Assembly: GCF_009811555.1 (NCBI RefSeq) | Contig: NZ_BLIN01000005.1 | Coordinates: 4,659,501-4,723,500 of the forward strand | Source of the DNA: Streptomyces caniferus | Lineage (GTDB): Bacteria > Actinomycetota > Actinomycetes > Streptomycetales > Streptomycetaceae | DNA length: 64,000 bases | Direction: 5' to 3' | In this document: positions 3,662-22,386 of the stretch, one piece after another | Layout: the number at the start of each line of letters is the position of its first letter | Position numbering within the stretch: the stretch's first letter is position 1 | Notes under the pieces: model-generated | Seen by the model: the letters and a program-made list of their open reading frames with translations, nothing else | Database searches by the model: none | Told to the model about the DNA's origin: nothing | Position numbers and translations under genes: made by a program

Positions 3662-3752
3662 GGAGGCGTCGCCTAGTCCGGTCTATGGCGCCGCACTGCT
3701 AATGCGGTTTGGGGCTTACCCCCCATCGAGGGTTCAAATCCCTCCGCCTCCG
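3662..3752 (+). tRNA. tRNA-Ser(GCT)
   Basis: 91-nt cloverleaf with long variable arm. Acceptor GGAGGCG pairs with CGCCTCC, the anticodon loop reads CTGCTAA (anticodon GCT), and the T-loop is GGTTCAAATCC. The CCA is not encoded. Confidence 0.97.
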
Positions 3753-4490: not shown

Positions 4491-4563
4491 GCGCTCGTAG
4501 CTTAACGGATAGAGCATCTGACTACGGATCAGAAGGTTGCAGGTTCGAATCCTGCCGAGCGCA
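4491..4563 (+). tRNA. tRNA-Arg(ACG)
   Basis: 73-nt cloverleaf. Acceptor GCGCTCG pairs with CGAGCGC, the anticodon loop is CTACGGA (anticodon ACG, read as ICG after deamination by TadA, encoded at 40.4 kb in this window), and the T-arm is GCAGGTTCGAATCCTGC. Confidence 0.97.
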
Positions 4564-6442: not shown

Positions 6443-6516
6443 CGCGGGGTGGAGCAGCTCGGTAGCTCGCTGGGCTCATAACCCAGAGGTCGCAGGTTCA
6501 AATCCTGTCCCCGCTA
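6443..6516 (+). tRNA. Initiator tRNA-fMet(CAT)
   Basis: 74 nt. Acceptor CGCGGGG faces CCCCGCT, leaving an unpaired C1-T72 at the top, the formylation hallmark of initiators. Three consecutive G-C pairs (GGG/CCC) flank the CTCATAA anticodon loop. The T-arm reads GCAGGTTCAAATCCTGT. Confidence 0.95.
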
Positions 6517-19246: not shown

Positions 19247-19300
19247 CCGGCCGGTCGCTCCCGCGCCACCGCCCCGATCCCCCGGGCAGCCGAAAATGAA

Positions 19301-19356
19301 TGTACGGCGTATAAGCGTCCCTGTACGGTGTAAGTCTCCGCTCGCACCGTACAGGG
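19301..19356 (+). promoter_or_regulatory. TetR-type operator/promoter of the efflux gene, upstream of the IS
   Basis: Near-palindrome TGTACGGCGTATA at 19301, then a perfect 12-base inverted repeat: CCCTGTACGGTG (19319-19330) and CACCGTACAGGG (19345-19356), 14-base spacer. The right arm ends exactly where the IS110 element begins, and joined to the sequence after the element it continues into AGGGAG-CCCGT-ATG of the efflux gene. Its natural binder is presumably the TetR protein encoded at 22531. No convincing -35 was identified. Confidence 0.65.
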
Positions 19357-19372
19357 AGTCTCAATGACTGAG

Positions 19373-20575
19373 TCAAGCCGCCTGCGCGACCGGCGGGGCG
19401 GAGGTGAAGACACGGTTGTCGCGCAGGAGTGCCCACAGCACGCTGGCCCGTCGGCGGGCCAAGGCGATGACGGCCTGGACGTGTTTGCACCCCTCGCCGC
19501 GTTTCTTGAGGTAGAAGTCCCGGTTCGGGCCCTCGCGGATGATGCTGGTCTGCGCGGACAGGTAGAACACCCGTCGCAGGCGGCGGCTGTAACGCTTGGG
19601 CCGGTGCAGGTTGCCGGTGCGTCGTCCGGAGTCGCGTGGGACGGGCACCAGCCCGGCCGCCGAGGCCAGGTGGCCGGCGTCGTCGTAGGCCGCGAAGTCG
19701 CCGGCGGCGACCACGAACTCCGCCCCCAGGATCGGACCCATGCCGGGCAGGGGCTCGATGATCTCTGCCTGCGGATGATCGCGGAAAGTCTCGCGGATCT
19801 GCTTGTCAATCCGCTTCAGACGGTCGTCCAGGGCCAGGATCTGCGCCGCCAGGTCAGCCACGATCTGCGCGGCGACATCCTCGCCGGGCAGCGCGGTGTG
19901 CTGGGCCTGGGCGGCTTCCAGCGCGGTCGCCGCGACGATGTCGGCGCCTCGGACGCTGCGGTTGGCCAGCCAGGCTGTGAGCCGGGCCCGGCCGCGGCGG
20001 CGGATCACTGCGGGGGTCTGGTAGCCGGTCAGCAGGACCAGGGCGCCCTTGTGGCTGCTGTAGTCGAAGGCCCGCTCCAGGGCGGGGAAGACGCCGGTCA
20101 GCACGTCGCGAAGCCGGTTGATCATCCGCACCCGGTCGGCCACAAGGTCGGCTCGATGGGCGGTCAACAGTGCGAGGTCGGCGGCAAGCTGCGCAGGCAC
20201 GTCGATCGCAGCCAAGTCCCTTCGGTGACGGGCGGTTTCGGCGATGACGTAGGCATCGCGGGCATCCGTCTTGGCCTCGCCCCGGTAGGCGCCCGACATG
20301 CGGTTGACGGTGCGTCCGGGCACGTAGGCGGCCTGCTGGCCGTGGGCCGCGAGCAGAGCCAGAAGCAGCGCCGAGGACGTGCCGGAGATGTCCACGGCCC
20401 AGTGAACCTCGTCCGCAAGGTCGAGGATCTCGCCGAGCGCGGTAAGGATCGCCGTCTCATCGTTGTCGATCTTCTTCGACCACACCGTCGCGCCGGTCTC
20501 ATCGACCACCGCCGCCCAATGGTGCCCCTTGCCCGCGTCGACACCGGCCCAGACCTGGGCCTGTCGCGTGCTCAC
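19373..20575 (-). CDS. IS110-family DEDD transposase/recombinase
   Basis: 400 residues from GTG 20575, preceded by GGAGGGG at 6 bases; codons upstream belong to the leader. RuvC-like N-terminal domain: WAGVDAGKGHHWAAV (D13), HWAVDISG (D62 where many members have Glu), AKTDARDAYVIAETAR (D104, D107). C-terminal transposase_20 domain: PLPGMGPILGAEFV, then HLASAAGLVPVPRDSG with the putative nucleophile Ser305, and RRLRRVFYLSA. The protein appears full-length and intact, so the element may be active. It works with the RNA read from its own leader in the family model. Confidence 0.93.
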   Translation of the reverse strand: MSTRQAQVWAGVDAGKGHHWAAVVDETGATVWSKKIDNDETAILTALGEILDLADEVHWAVDISGTSSALLLALLAAHGQQAAYVPGRTVNRMSGAYRGEAKTDARDAYVIAETARHRRDLAAIDVPAQLAADLALLTAHRADLVADRVRMINRLRDVLTGVFPALERAFDYSSHKGALVLLTGYQTPAVIRRRGRARLTAWLANRSVRGADIVAATALEAAQAQHTALPGEDVAAQIVADLAAQILALDDRLKRIDKQIRETFRDHPQAEIIEPLPGMGPILGAEFVVAAGDFAAYDDAGHLASAAGLVPVPRDSGRRTGNLHRPKRYSRRLRRVFYLSAQTSIIREGPNRDFYLKKRGEGCKHVQAVIALARRRASVLWALLRDNRVFTSAPPVAQAA

Positions 20576-20624
20576 TTGCCCCTCCTCGTTCCGCACAGCG
20601 TGCCGTCGGCCCGAGGAACACCCC

Positions 20625-20758
20625 GCTGTCCGCTCCGTAATCAGCGACCGCACAAGGCGCGCACATCTCAATCAGCAGCCAGGGCGCCCCGGAGAGCCGG
20701 ACGGCCACTCCTTGTGAGCCACCACTGGCAAGCCCGCATCAGCCACATCCGGCCCTCC
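20625..20758 (-). ncRNA. Candidate bridge RNA of the IS110 element
   Basis: Leader upstream of the transposase, read on the minus strand. Stem-loop 1 (20758-20691) is closed by GGAG-GCCGGA pairing with UCCGGC-CUCC around an apical UGCC/GGCU hairpin. Its internal loop holds AUGCGGGCU (20739-20731) and ACAAGGAG (20715-20708), matching the left target strand ATACGGGCT (8/9, the difference a G-T wobble) and the complement of right target CTCCCTGT (7/8). Loop 2 holds AUUGAGA (20672-20666), identical to the element's right end, and UUACGGAG (20640-20632), complementary to its left end CTCCGTAA. The order target-left, target-right, donor-left, donor-right is that described for IS621. RNA ends are guesses. 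Confidence 0.75.
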
Positions 20759-20787
20759 CGGGCCGCCTAACAACTTACGGAGCCCGT

Positions 20788-22386
20788 ATGCCCTCCGTGG
20801 CCTCCGACGCCACCCCCGCCGTCCTCCAGCCGCCGGGCCGGCCCGCCGCCCGCTGGCTGATCCTCGCCGTCATCTGCCTCGCCCAGCTGACGGTCATCCT
20901 CGACAACACCGTCCTGAACGTCGCCATCCCCTCCCTCACCGAGGAGCTGGGCGCGACCACCGCCGACGTCCAGTGGATGATCAACGCCTATTCGCTGGTC
21001 CAGTCCGGTCTGCTGCTCATCGCCGGCAACTCCGCCGACCGCTACGGCCGGAAGAAGATGCTCCTCGTCGGCCTGGCGCTGTTCGGCGTCGCCTCGCTCG
21101 CCGCGGCCCTCGCCACGTCACCCGGCCTGCTCATCGCGGCACGCGCCGGTATGGGCATCGGCGGGGCCCTGCTGGTGACCACCACCCTCGCCGTCGTCAT
21201 GCAGATCTTCGACGACGCGGAGCGCCCCCGGGCCATCGGCATCTGGAGCTCGGTCAACTCCCTCGGCTTCGCCGCCGGCCCGCTGATCGGCGGCTCCCTG
21301 CTCGACCACTTCTGGTGGGGCTCGCTGTTCCTGGTCAACCTCCCCGTCGCGGTGATCTCGCTGGTGGCCGTCGCCGCCCTCGTCCCCGAATCCACCAGCC
21401 GCGGCGACAGCCTCGCCCTGCCGGGCACGAACCCGGCGGCGCGGACCCCCGTCGACCTGCTGGGCGCCCTGCTGTCCATGATCGGCATGGTGGGAGTGGT
21501 CTTCGCGATCATCTCCGGGCCGATCTCCGGCTGGCTGTCCGGCCGGGTGCTGATCTCCGCGGCCATCGGCGTCGCCGGGCTCGCCGCCTTCGCGCTGTGG
21601 GAGCTGCGCGTCCCGCACCCGATGCTGGACATGCACTTCTTCCGCAACCGCCGGTTCATCGGCGCCGTCTCGGGCGGCATCCTCGTCGCCTTCGGGATGG
21701 GCGGCTCGATGTTCCTGCTCACCCAGCACCTCCAACTGGTCCTCGGGTACGGGCCGCTGGACGCCGGGCTGCGGATGGCGCCGCTCGCCGTCACCGTCAT
21801 CCTGGTCAACTTCACCGGCCTGGGCGCCCGGCTGATCCGCCGGTTCGGCACCCCCGGGATGATCGTCTCGGGGATGTCGCTGCTCGCGGCCGGCCTCGCC
21901 GCCGTCTCCCTGCTGGGCGGCGCCGGCTACGGCGGCATGCTGTGCGGCCTGGTCATGATGGGCGTCGGCATCGCGCTCGCCATGCCGACGATGGCCAACG
22001 CCATCATGTCCGCGATCCCCCCGGCCAAGGCCGGCGTGGGGGCCGGCGTCAACGGCACCCTGATGGAATTCGGCCAGGGCCTCGGCGTCGCCGTCCTCGG
22101 CGCGGTCCTCAACTCCCGTTTCGCGGCGCTGCTTCCGCTGGTCGCCGCGGGCGCCGGGTCGTTGCCCGCGGCGTTCGCCCGGACCCGTACGGACGGCGAA
22201 CGGGCCGCCGTCCACGACGCCTTCGCGTCCGGCATCGGCACCAGCCAGCTGGTCGGCGCGGCCGCGGTCTTCCTCGGCGGGCTGCTCGCCGCCGTCCTGC
22301 TGCGCCGGGCGGAGCGGGCCGGGCGGGACGCGGCGCAGCCCGCTGCGCCTCCCGGTGCGCAACCGGCCGCCGCGGCGGCGGAATAG
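20788..22386 (+). CDS. DHA2 (EmrB/QacA-type) MFS drug exporter
   Basis: 532 residues, 14 predicted membrane helices. DHA2 markers: LDNTVLNVAIPSL in TM1, DVQWMINAYSLV, GNSADRYGRKKML (motif A), ARAGMGIGGALL (motif B), GFAAGPLIGGSLLDHFWWGSLFLVNLP (motif C region, residues ~155-182). Family role: proton-driven efflux of hydrophobic drugs. ATG 20788 keeps a usable ACGGAG site from the inserted element; the ancestral AGGGAG is split 1.4 kb away. The insertion separates the gene from its TetR-type operator. A TetR gene follows 144 bases downstream. Confidence 0.92.
   Translation: MPSVASDATPAVLQPPGRPAARWLILAVICLAQLTVILDNTVLNVAIPSLTEELGATTADVQWMINAYSLVQSGLLLIAGNSADRYGRKKMLLVGLALFGVASLAAALATSPGLLIAARAGMGIGGALLVTTTLAVVMQIFDDAERPRAIGIWSSVNSLGFAAGPLIGGSLLDHFWWGSLFLVNLPVAVISLVAVAALVPESTSRGDSLALPGTNPAARTPVDLLGALLSMIGMVGVVFAIISGPISGWLSGRVLISAAIGVAGLAAFALWELRVPHPMLDMHFFRNRRFIGAVSGGILVAFGMGGSMFLLTQHLQLVLGYGPLDAGLRMAPLAVTVILVNFTGLGARLIRRFGTPGMIVSGMSLLAAGLAAVSLLGGAGYGGMLCGLVMMGVGIALAMPTMANAIMSAIPPAKAGVGAGVNGTLMEFGQGLGVAVLGAVLNSRFAALLPLVAAGAGSLPAAFARTRTDGERAAVHDAFASGIGTSQLVGAAAVFLGGLLAAVLLRRAERAGRDAAQPAAPPGAQPAAAAAE

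Follow-up and report, generated by a model that had tools for sequence, protein, structure and literature searches.

The IS110-group element described here is best explained as one with a bridge RNA programmed to target translation starts in bacteria, a reading to which we assign a probability of roughly 0.8. It lies in the window, the stretch of 64,000 nucleotides that was analyzed as a whole, where it has come between AGGGAG and the beginning of an MFS gene, CCCGTATG. RNA-guided targeting of starts and its link with an open antisense reading frame are well supported.

We compared the element with relatives at 147 loci, namely 30 loci from 392 genomes of the genus, 77 named loci and 40 further stretches; 104 of these had readable bridge RNAs, and dropping duplicate flanks and guides left 87 distinct insertions, the window's included. 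The recombinase matched Pfam DEDD_Tnp_IS110 (5.1e-49) and Transposase_20 (7.6e-18), NCBIfam NF033542 (5.9e-73) and, at 6.7e-9, the IS621 structure chain 8wt6, a distant sequence kinship; these searches used 19376-20578, which begins one codon further upstream and leaves off the stop. The translation contains GLVPVPRDSG, which has the form of the G--P----SG motif (as defined in the part of PMC11187229 available to us), so that a DEDD recombinase domain, a C-terminal Transposase_20 domain and this motif, as in the IS110 group, were all found. The gene is flanked by 207 nt of non-coding sequence upstream and 16 nt downstream, core included.

The homology of most full-length relatives begins and ends sharply at the CT cores of the element; their usual left end, CTCCGTAAG, is conserved, and their usual right end is CATTGAGACT. 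An element-free relative (L235, MFS 79% identical) provided the empty site, in which the MFS leader runs uninterrupted and reads CCGTACAGGGAGCCTGTATG; the joined flanks of the window read CCGTACAGGGAGCCCGTATG, and the core alone is common. The relatives' ends and the empty site indicate a dinucleotide core and no further target duplication, as in the IS110 group. Of 38 inverted-repeat pairs the 25 longest were considered, and none connected one element end with the other. In two loci from two species (L044 and L058), the right ends read GAGTAA followed by AATCCGATC in place of GAGACT and look as if they had been rearranged alike. The MFS gene is followed by a TetR-type gene, and its leader (19290-19360 of the window) contains repeated half-palindromes of the type TGTACGG(C/T)GTA, also seen in the leaders of several relatives; the last adjoins the Shine-Dalgarno sequence that was hit. 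They are presumably operators of the adjacent TetR-type gene.

The first-pass annotation had read the leader of the recombinase gene as an IS110 bridge RNA with four guides and had given the element a CT core. The core and ends hold by the homology limits and the empty site, and the places, strands, order and match counts of the guides were found to be exact: the left target guide matches at 8/9 plus a G-T wobble, the right target guide at 7/8 (one mismatch in its target), the left donor guide at 7/7 and the right donor guide at 8/8. No mononucleotide shuffle of the 157-nt leader (0/20,000) held all four guides in order at those thresholds, and single guides occurred in 208, 1003, 27 and 16 of the 20,000 shuffles, respectively. 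The guide lengths were picked post hoc, and the decisive evidence is therefore comparative. An alignment of 35 chosen leaders revealed two long stems around two loops, for target and donor, and a small hairpin inside each loop. The consensus comprises 44 pairs, with 99.0% of cells paired in these 35 sequences, and 12 stem pairs changed on both sides as compared with 6.1 in shuffled alignments (0/500 as high); none of 500 shuffles equaled the leader structure on any of five measures. Single-sequence folding, unconvincing on its own as proof of structure (z of -2.82 for 206 nt and -1.33 for 157 nt), was set aside in favor of the alignment. The fold was borne out by the consensus with its compensatory pairs but only weakly to moderately by single sequences. 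Scanned against Rfam at gathering thresholds, the window gave three tRNAs and no other match, hence no known bridge RNA family. The three tRNA genes lie on the plus strand at 3662-3752, 4491-4563 and 6443-6516. Two internal loops, one with target guides and one with donor guides complementary to target and donor, together with covariation of both guides and structure in relatives, confirm at the level of sequence the leader as a readable predicted bridge RNA that matches its own target and circle junction (Table 1).

Table 1. Features of the element and its insertion site (window coordinates)
Feature	Position	Strand	Basis
Complete IS110 element with both CT cores, 1426 bp	19357..20782	-	Homology limits of relatives; empty site in a relative
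CT core, left end (LE)	20781..20782	-	Comparison of relatives' ends
CT core, right end (RE)	19357..19358	-	Comparison of relatives' ends
IS110 recombinase, likely GTG start	19373..20575	-	Pfam, NCBIfam and IS621 structure chain matches
Body of the predicted bridge RNA, bounded by the outer stem	20608..20764	-	Consensus structure, 12 compensatory pairs in 35 sequences
Left target guide (LTG) AUGCGGGCU	20731..20739	-	Sequence match and covariation
Right target guide (RTG) CACAAGGAG	20708..20716	-	Sequence match and covariation; ACAAGGAG of the first-pass annotation is 20708-20715
Left donor guide (LDG) AUUGAGA	20666..20672	-	Sequence match, leader alignment
Right donor guide (RDG) UUACGGAG	20633..20640	-	Sequence match, leader alignment
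Host Shine-Dalgarno AGGGAG (its last AG is the core), 5 nt upstream of the element's ATG	19353..19358	+	Sequence; empty site
Antisense ORF of 468 codons, running from an ATG in RE to a TAA a little way inside LE	19364..20770	+	ORF list; open in start-targeting relatives
Shine-Dalgarno ACGGAG contributed by the element, 5 nt upstream of the MFS ATG	20777..20782	+	Sequence; LE CTCCGTAAG conserved
Host MFS efflux-type gene, start signal hit	20788..22386	+	Pfam MFS_1 2.6e-51
-35 TTGACT in RE, half of predicted circle-junction promoter	19371..19376	-	Reconstructed junctions
-10 TAAGTT in LE, other half of predicted junction promoter	20772..20777	-	Reconstructed junctions

The letters of the target guides (left arm AUG.., right arm ..AGGAG) make up the complement of a Shine-Dalgarno sequence and an ATG, and in sequence comparison the arms of the target loop match the complement of a Shine-Dalgarno sequence, about 5 nt and an ATG. 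The left flanks of most relatives are of the kind CATGGGT, CATGGGG or CATCGGG and run into CT-CC; this is the reverse complement of GGAG-spacer-ATG. Of the 87 insertions, 82 had a left flank of 150 nt or longer (L053, whose flank is unread N, is counted), and in 59 of these 82 the scan of 2-12 nt met a start codon heading an ORF of 60 codons or longer. In 56 of the 82, and hence in 56 of the 59 start insertions, this was an ATG at 4-8 nt; such an ATG start was present at 29 of 758 CTCC sites in the 64-kb window minus the element. Insertion of the IS900 type, between a Shine-Dalgarno sequence and a start codon (CATG..CTCC), was observed in relatives and distant relatives and is borne out here by the empty site. 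The target, missed by the first-pass annotation, thus appears to be the Shine-Dalgarno sequence and start codon of a gene, a conclusion well supported by these comparisons.

The donor side is built in the same way, a likeness that the first-pass annotation also overlooked, as it did the antisense ORF and the loose left register. On the plus strand, the RE-LE circle junction reads CTTACGGAG-TCTCA-ATG, that is, Shine-Dalgarno, spacer and ATG; because the donor junction is itself of this form, insertion creates two hybrid starts. A predicted promoter, complete only in the circle, shares bases with these hybrid starts: TTGAC[TA]-17 nt-TAAG was present in 61/61 reconstructed junctions, so that a promoter rebuilt at the circle junction, as in bridge RNA elements, is predicted in every one. 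The TAA that closes the antisense ORF (20768-20770) lies 12 nt in from the left end. In one relative (L039), the ORF continues in frame into the host gene, giving a single frame of 711 codons.

We then related the openness of this frame to the target class, assigned from the flank alone. Stops in the antisense frame correspond to TTA, CTA and TCA codons of the recombinase gene (tnp). After identical tnp genes were dropped, 70 elements remained, of which 43 were start-targeting, 18 were not, 5 had a short host ORF and 4 had no left flank. Start-targeting elements (3 of 43 partial) carried 1 stop in 16,182 codons, in 1/43 elements, versus 48 stops in 6,849 codons, in 17/18 elements, for the others (1 of 18 partial), a contrast with a Fisher value of 4.5e-20 that takes no account of shared ancestry. 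An antisense ORF of at least 400 aa was present in 32/35 start-targeting elements versus 1/10 others. With frameshift-split rows removed, a filter that dropped 5 rows over the two classes together, including L122, which alone among start-targeting elements has a stop, the ORF frame had 0.0 stops per 1000 codons in the start-targeting class versus 6.93 in the other, and the remaining two antisense frames had 26.6/26.5 versus 32.0/32.2. Control NNA codons numbered 847 in start-targeting elements versus 469 in the others. Codon bias as the source of the open frame was ruled out by these control codons and control frames. Besides L122, the exceptions among start-targeting elements are the frameshifted L085 and L088. 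The five short-host-ORF elements with an ATG had 4 stops, in 2/5 (L014 and L128), and the four elements with no readable left flank had 0.

On trees built from protein, or from codons with the affected columns removed, the target class switches 7-10 times (L003 being counted as start-targeting in one analysis); the well-supported branches alone force 1-2 switches, too few for an independent-pairs sign test. Among start-targeting pairs, antisense identity was 66-74% at a tnp identity of 84-98%, so openness rather than sequence seems to be kept. The antisense frame is kept stop-free in start-targeting elements and mostly not in others, a result that is well supported; an antisense ORF over the whole element, of the IS900 type, is present here under stop avoidance.

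An antisense ORF maintained in this way could encode a functional protein, for whose expression host starts are borrowed, as in the "hed" idea for IS900. IS900 carries a complementary ORF over the whole element that lacks an RBS or start codon of its own (PMC8141618, in the part available), and in the start-targeting class antisense identity was slightly above that of the other class at equal tnp identity and third-position divergence slightly lower. Against this, the antisense product changes far faster than tnp, by the identities given above, and we consider a functional protein rather unlikely. The slight extra constraint suggested for start-targeting elements would also fit a G+C difference.

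Covariation of guides and targets speaks for our preferred reading, that the guides direct the element to starts. The first-pass annotation had proposed a search for further genomic copies and had set beforehand the test that their insertion sites should resemble the target. Its own genome yielded just one copy, and the test was therefore run on relatives, whose flanks follow the guides: most occupy sites of a related form (CAT-N4..8-core-CC), and a change of target goes along with changed guides. Positions 5-9 of the right guide matched their own target at 3.52/5 (n=60, rows lacking a right end being dropped from the 87 insertions) as compared with 1.84 when permuted, a value reached by 0/10,000 permutations that take no account of shared ancestry. 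With one base of slack on either side, the left-guide 7-mer matched at 6.01/7 (n=81 of the 87) versus 3.96 permuted, the best of 2,000 such ancestry-blind permutations being 4.36. A strict left register was rejected, since offset 0 was best in just 46 of 81 insertions, +1 in 21 and -1 in 13, with one tie. One guide pair shared by 8 insertions had 5 or 6 nt between CAT and the core, and other identical-guide sets had spacings of 5/6 or 6/7, some sets having a single spacing; two sets with a TT-type core (5/7 and 5/8) are less clear because an alternative alignment is possible. The use of the same guide at different Shine-Dalgarno-to-ATG spacings indicates that the left arm tolerates a shift against the core, and identical guides at several natural sites of different spacing constitute a natural specificity assay. 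For the target loop of IS621, a low mismatch tolerance has been reported (PMC11208160, in the part available).

Starts might still be hit through tolerance or because Shine-Dalgarno sequences are common, with only the right guide mattering and the left ATG match incidental. The loose left register fits this view, as does the near fixity of the core and next bases: right-guide positions 1-9 matched in 60, 60, 60, 58, 43, 53, 50, 48 and 17 of 60 insertions. However, left guides beat permutation even at the fixed register (4.35/7 versus 3.00, n=81), and the start insertions are nearly all at ATG although GTG starts are common in Streptomyces. Furthermore, in re-aimed elements both guide arms differ together with the target. 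The right guide matched 9/9 in L069, L081 (changed CTCG) and L013; by site, the right side matched 9/9 at CACGTGAAG/CTCCGGGC (guide ACGTGAAG), 9/9 at CAAGGCGG/CTCGCTCC despite an altered CTCC, and 9/9 at CACAACAC/CTCCCACC. Incidental start targeting through the right guide is thus improbable.

We looked at 11 elements at non-start sites and scanned 7 flank pieces against Pfam. Transposase-type domains extended across or up to the insertion site in L012 (HTH_33) and L013 (DDE), and the left flank of L069 contained an rve_3 integrase core. L070 had weak transposase and integrase-core matches below the Pfam cut-offs, and the flank pieces of L015, L017 and L022 gave no Pfam match.

Distant relatives (about 41-78% protein identity), among them elements that RefSeq names IS2112, IS116 and ISMav6, allowed the association of start targeting with an open frame to be followed further. 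Antisense stops were found in 0/14 start-targeting elements versus 15/19 others, with labels assigned partly by eye, L228 and L231 (start-like flank, no annotated gene) counted as non-start, and L185 (no left end), L194 (ambiguous, 1 stop), L215 (duplicate) and a group of 33-38% identity left out; the 14 and 19 are not all independent, since L182 and L183 come from the same genome as copies and L212 is closely related to L214. Of 118 plasmid records with a match, 22 were read. In the 33-38% group, whose targets were partly read, 8/10 distinct genes had stops. Non-start elements free of stops were L003 (start-like target), L219, L220, L228 (flank CATGGCACG), L232 and, within the 33-38% group, L206 and L210. 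The right ends in that group (L198-L211, from Streptomyces and other families) are of the CATAGGGACACCCCCC type; left ends, in the copies compared, are for example CCCGTTACC, and the sites seen are unlike gene starts. A separate subgroup with a TT-type core (L024, L026, L027, L029, L030, L115, L117, L118 and L120; about 71-73% DNA identity) mostly has the left end TTCCCTAAG, and its first core bases sometimes differ between the ends.

These data bear on whether high G+C codon usage and relatedness, with no selection, could have left the frame open as a by-product. TTA, CTA and TCA are rare here (27 in 11,997 codons of the window's genes), which often leaves such a frame open, and the relatives share common ancestry. 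Yet at the ratio of the window's own genes, 54.8 stops would be expected in the start-targeting class, where 1 was observed; relatives with other targets have many; and elements from Rhodococcus, Mycobacterium and elsewhere in Streptomyces show the same contrast. A by-product is therefore very improbable. Recognition by protein, with the leader RNA a mere regulatory hairpin or mRNA leader, is hardly credible: the evidence for the RNA is sequence-based, but the two-stem structure has compensatory pairs, guide letters covary with the DNA, and the recombinase is homologous to that of IS621, in which a bridge RNA is proven.

Taken together with the start-aimed guides, the hybrid starts suggest the following mechanism. 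The target loop guides would recognize the Shine-Dalgarno-ATG region of the host, and the donor loop would recognize the RE-LE circle junction; exchange at the CT core would then swap the two starts, so that the host Shine-Dalgarno sequence faces the element's ATG (19364, antisense ORF) and the element's Shine-Dalgarno sequence faces the host ATG (20788). The circle-junction promoter would drive bridge RNA and recombinase only after excision. Ribosomes loaded on the host Shine-Dalgarno sequence would translate the antisense ORF through the element, and re-initiation at the element's Shine-Dalgarno sequence would keep transcription and translation running into the host gene. With read-through and re-initiation, the host gene would stay expressed and the insertion would be cheap and nearly transparent; we give this read-through step even chances. 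We are equally divided on a broader proposal, that a deep actinobacterial clade has both donor junction and guides built as starts, inserts in a translation-transparent manner, and loses the open frame on re-aiming, which in at least two cases, perhaps four, was at transposase genes of other elements.

By its sequence features the element belongs to the IS110 group with bridge RNAs. It resembles IS621 (PMC11208160, in the part available) in its IS110-type recombinase, the two-loop RNA upstream, the order and strands of the LTG, RTG, LDG and RDG, the CT core and the promoter rebuilt across the circle junction. Unlike IS621, which targets REP elements, it targets a translation start, and its left guide tolerates a change of at least one base in the spacing to the core. 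The available part of that report (Durrant et al. 2024) has no mention of start codon, IS900, ribosome or Shine. The seekRNA elements of the IS1111 and IS110 groups (Siddiquee et al. 2024, PMC11187229) are similar in that a non-coding region sets a target-seeking RNA, and natural re-aiming is described for them; in contrast to the present element, no start-codon target or antisense ORF is mentioned in the available part of that source.

The closest parallel in target choice is IS900 of Mycobacterium avium subsp. paratuberculosis, an IS110 family element of 1,451 bp with the target motif CATGNNNNNNTCTCCTT, insertion at translation signals and an antisense ORF (hed) over the whole element (PMC8141618, in the part available). 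The title of a 1997 paper cited there (Doran 1997) states that IS900 targets translation initiation signals to express its complementary ORF. Start targeting and a full-length antisense ORF are thus shared with IS900 as described in that source, and the guides, their covariation and the class-dependent loss of the antisense frame are added here. Three elements named in RefSeq, IS2112 (Rhodococcus), IS116 (S. clavuligerus) and ISMav6 (M. avium), have recombinases 77%, 65% and 54% (53.6%) identical to that of the window. ISMav6 is presumably IS900-like. One copy of each was read, and all three lie antisense just upstream of an annotated ATG with 0 antisense stops, as here; they differ from the window element in hosts and guides, IS116 and ISMav6 also in their left ends, and IS116 in its TT-type core. 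Our literature search found nothing joining IS900 to bridge RNA and nothing that combines IS110 and bridge RNA with a ribosome binding site and a start codon; PMC11946415, PMC7823733 and PMC12500396, in the parts available, contained nothing on start targeting by bridge RNA.

What is new beyond the known kind is the combination of start-aimed guides, a start-mimicking donor and a class-dependent antisense frame. These findings link bridge RNAs with the 1997 observation on IS900, namely its preference for starts and a full-length antisense ORF, and make the question of that ORF's function testable, since the frame is kept open chiefly in elements with a guide RNA directed at starts. They also reveal natural re-aiming of both guide arms, several times within one clade. 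Finally, they suggest that targeting start signals can lower the cost of insertion and that the element may be built for read-through by host ribosomes.
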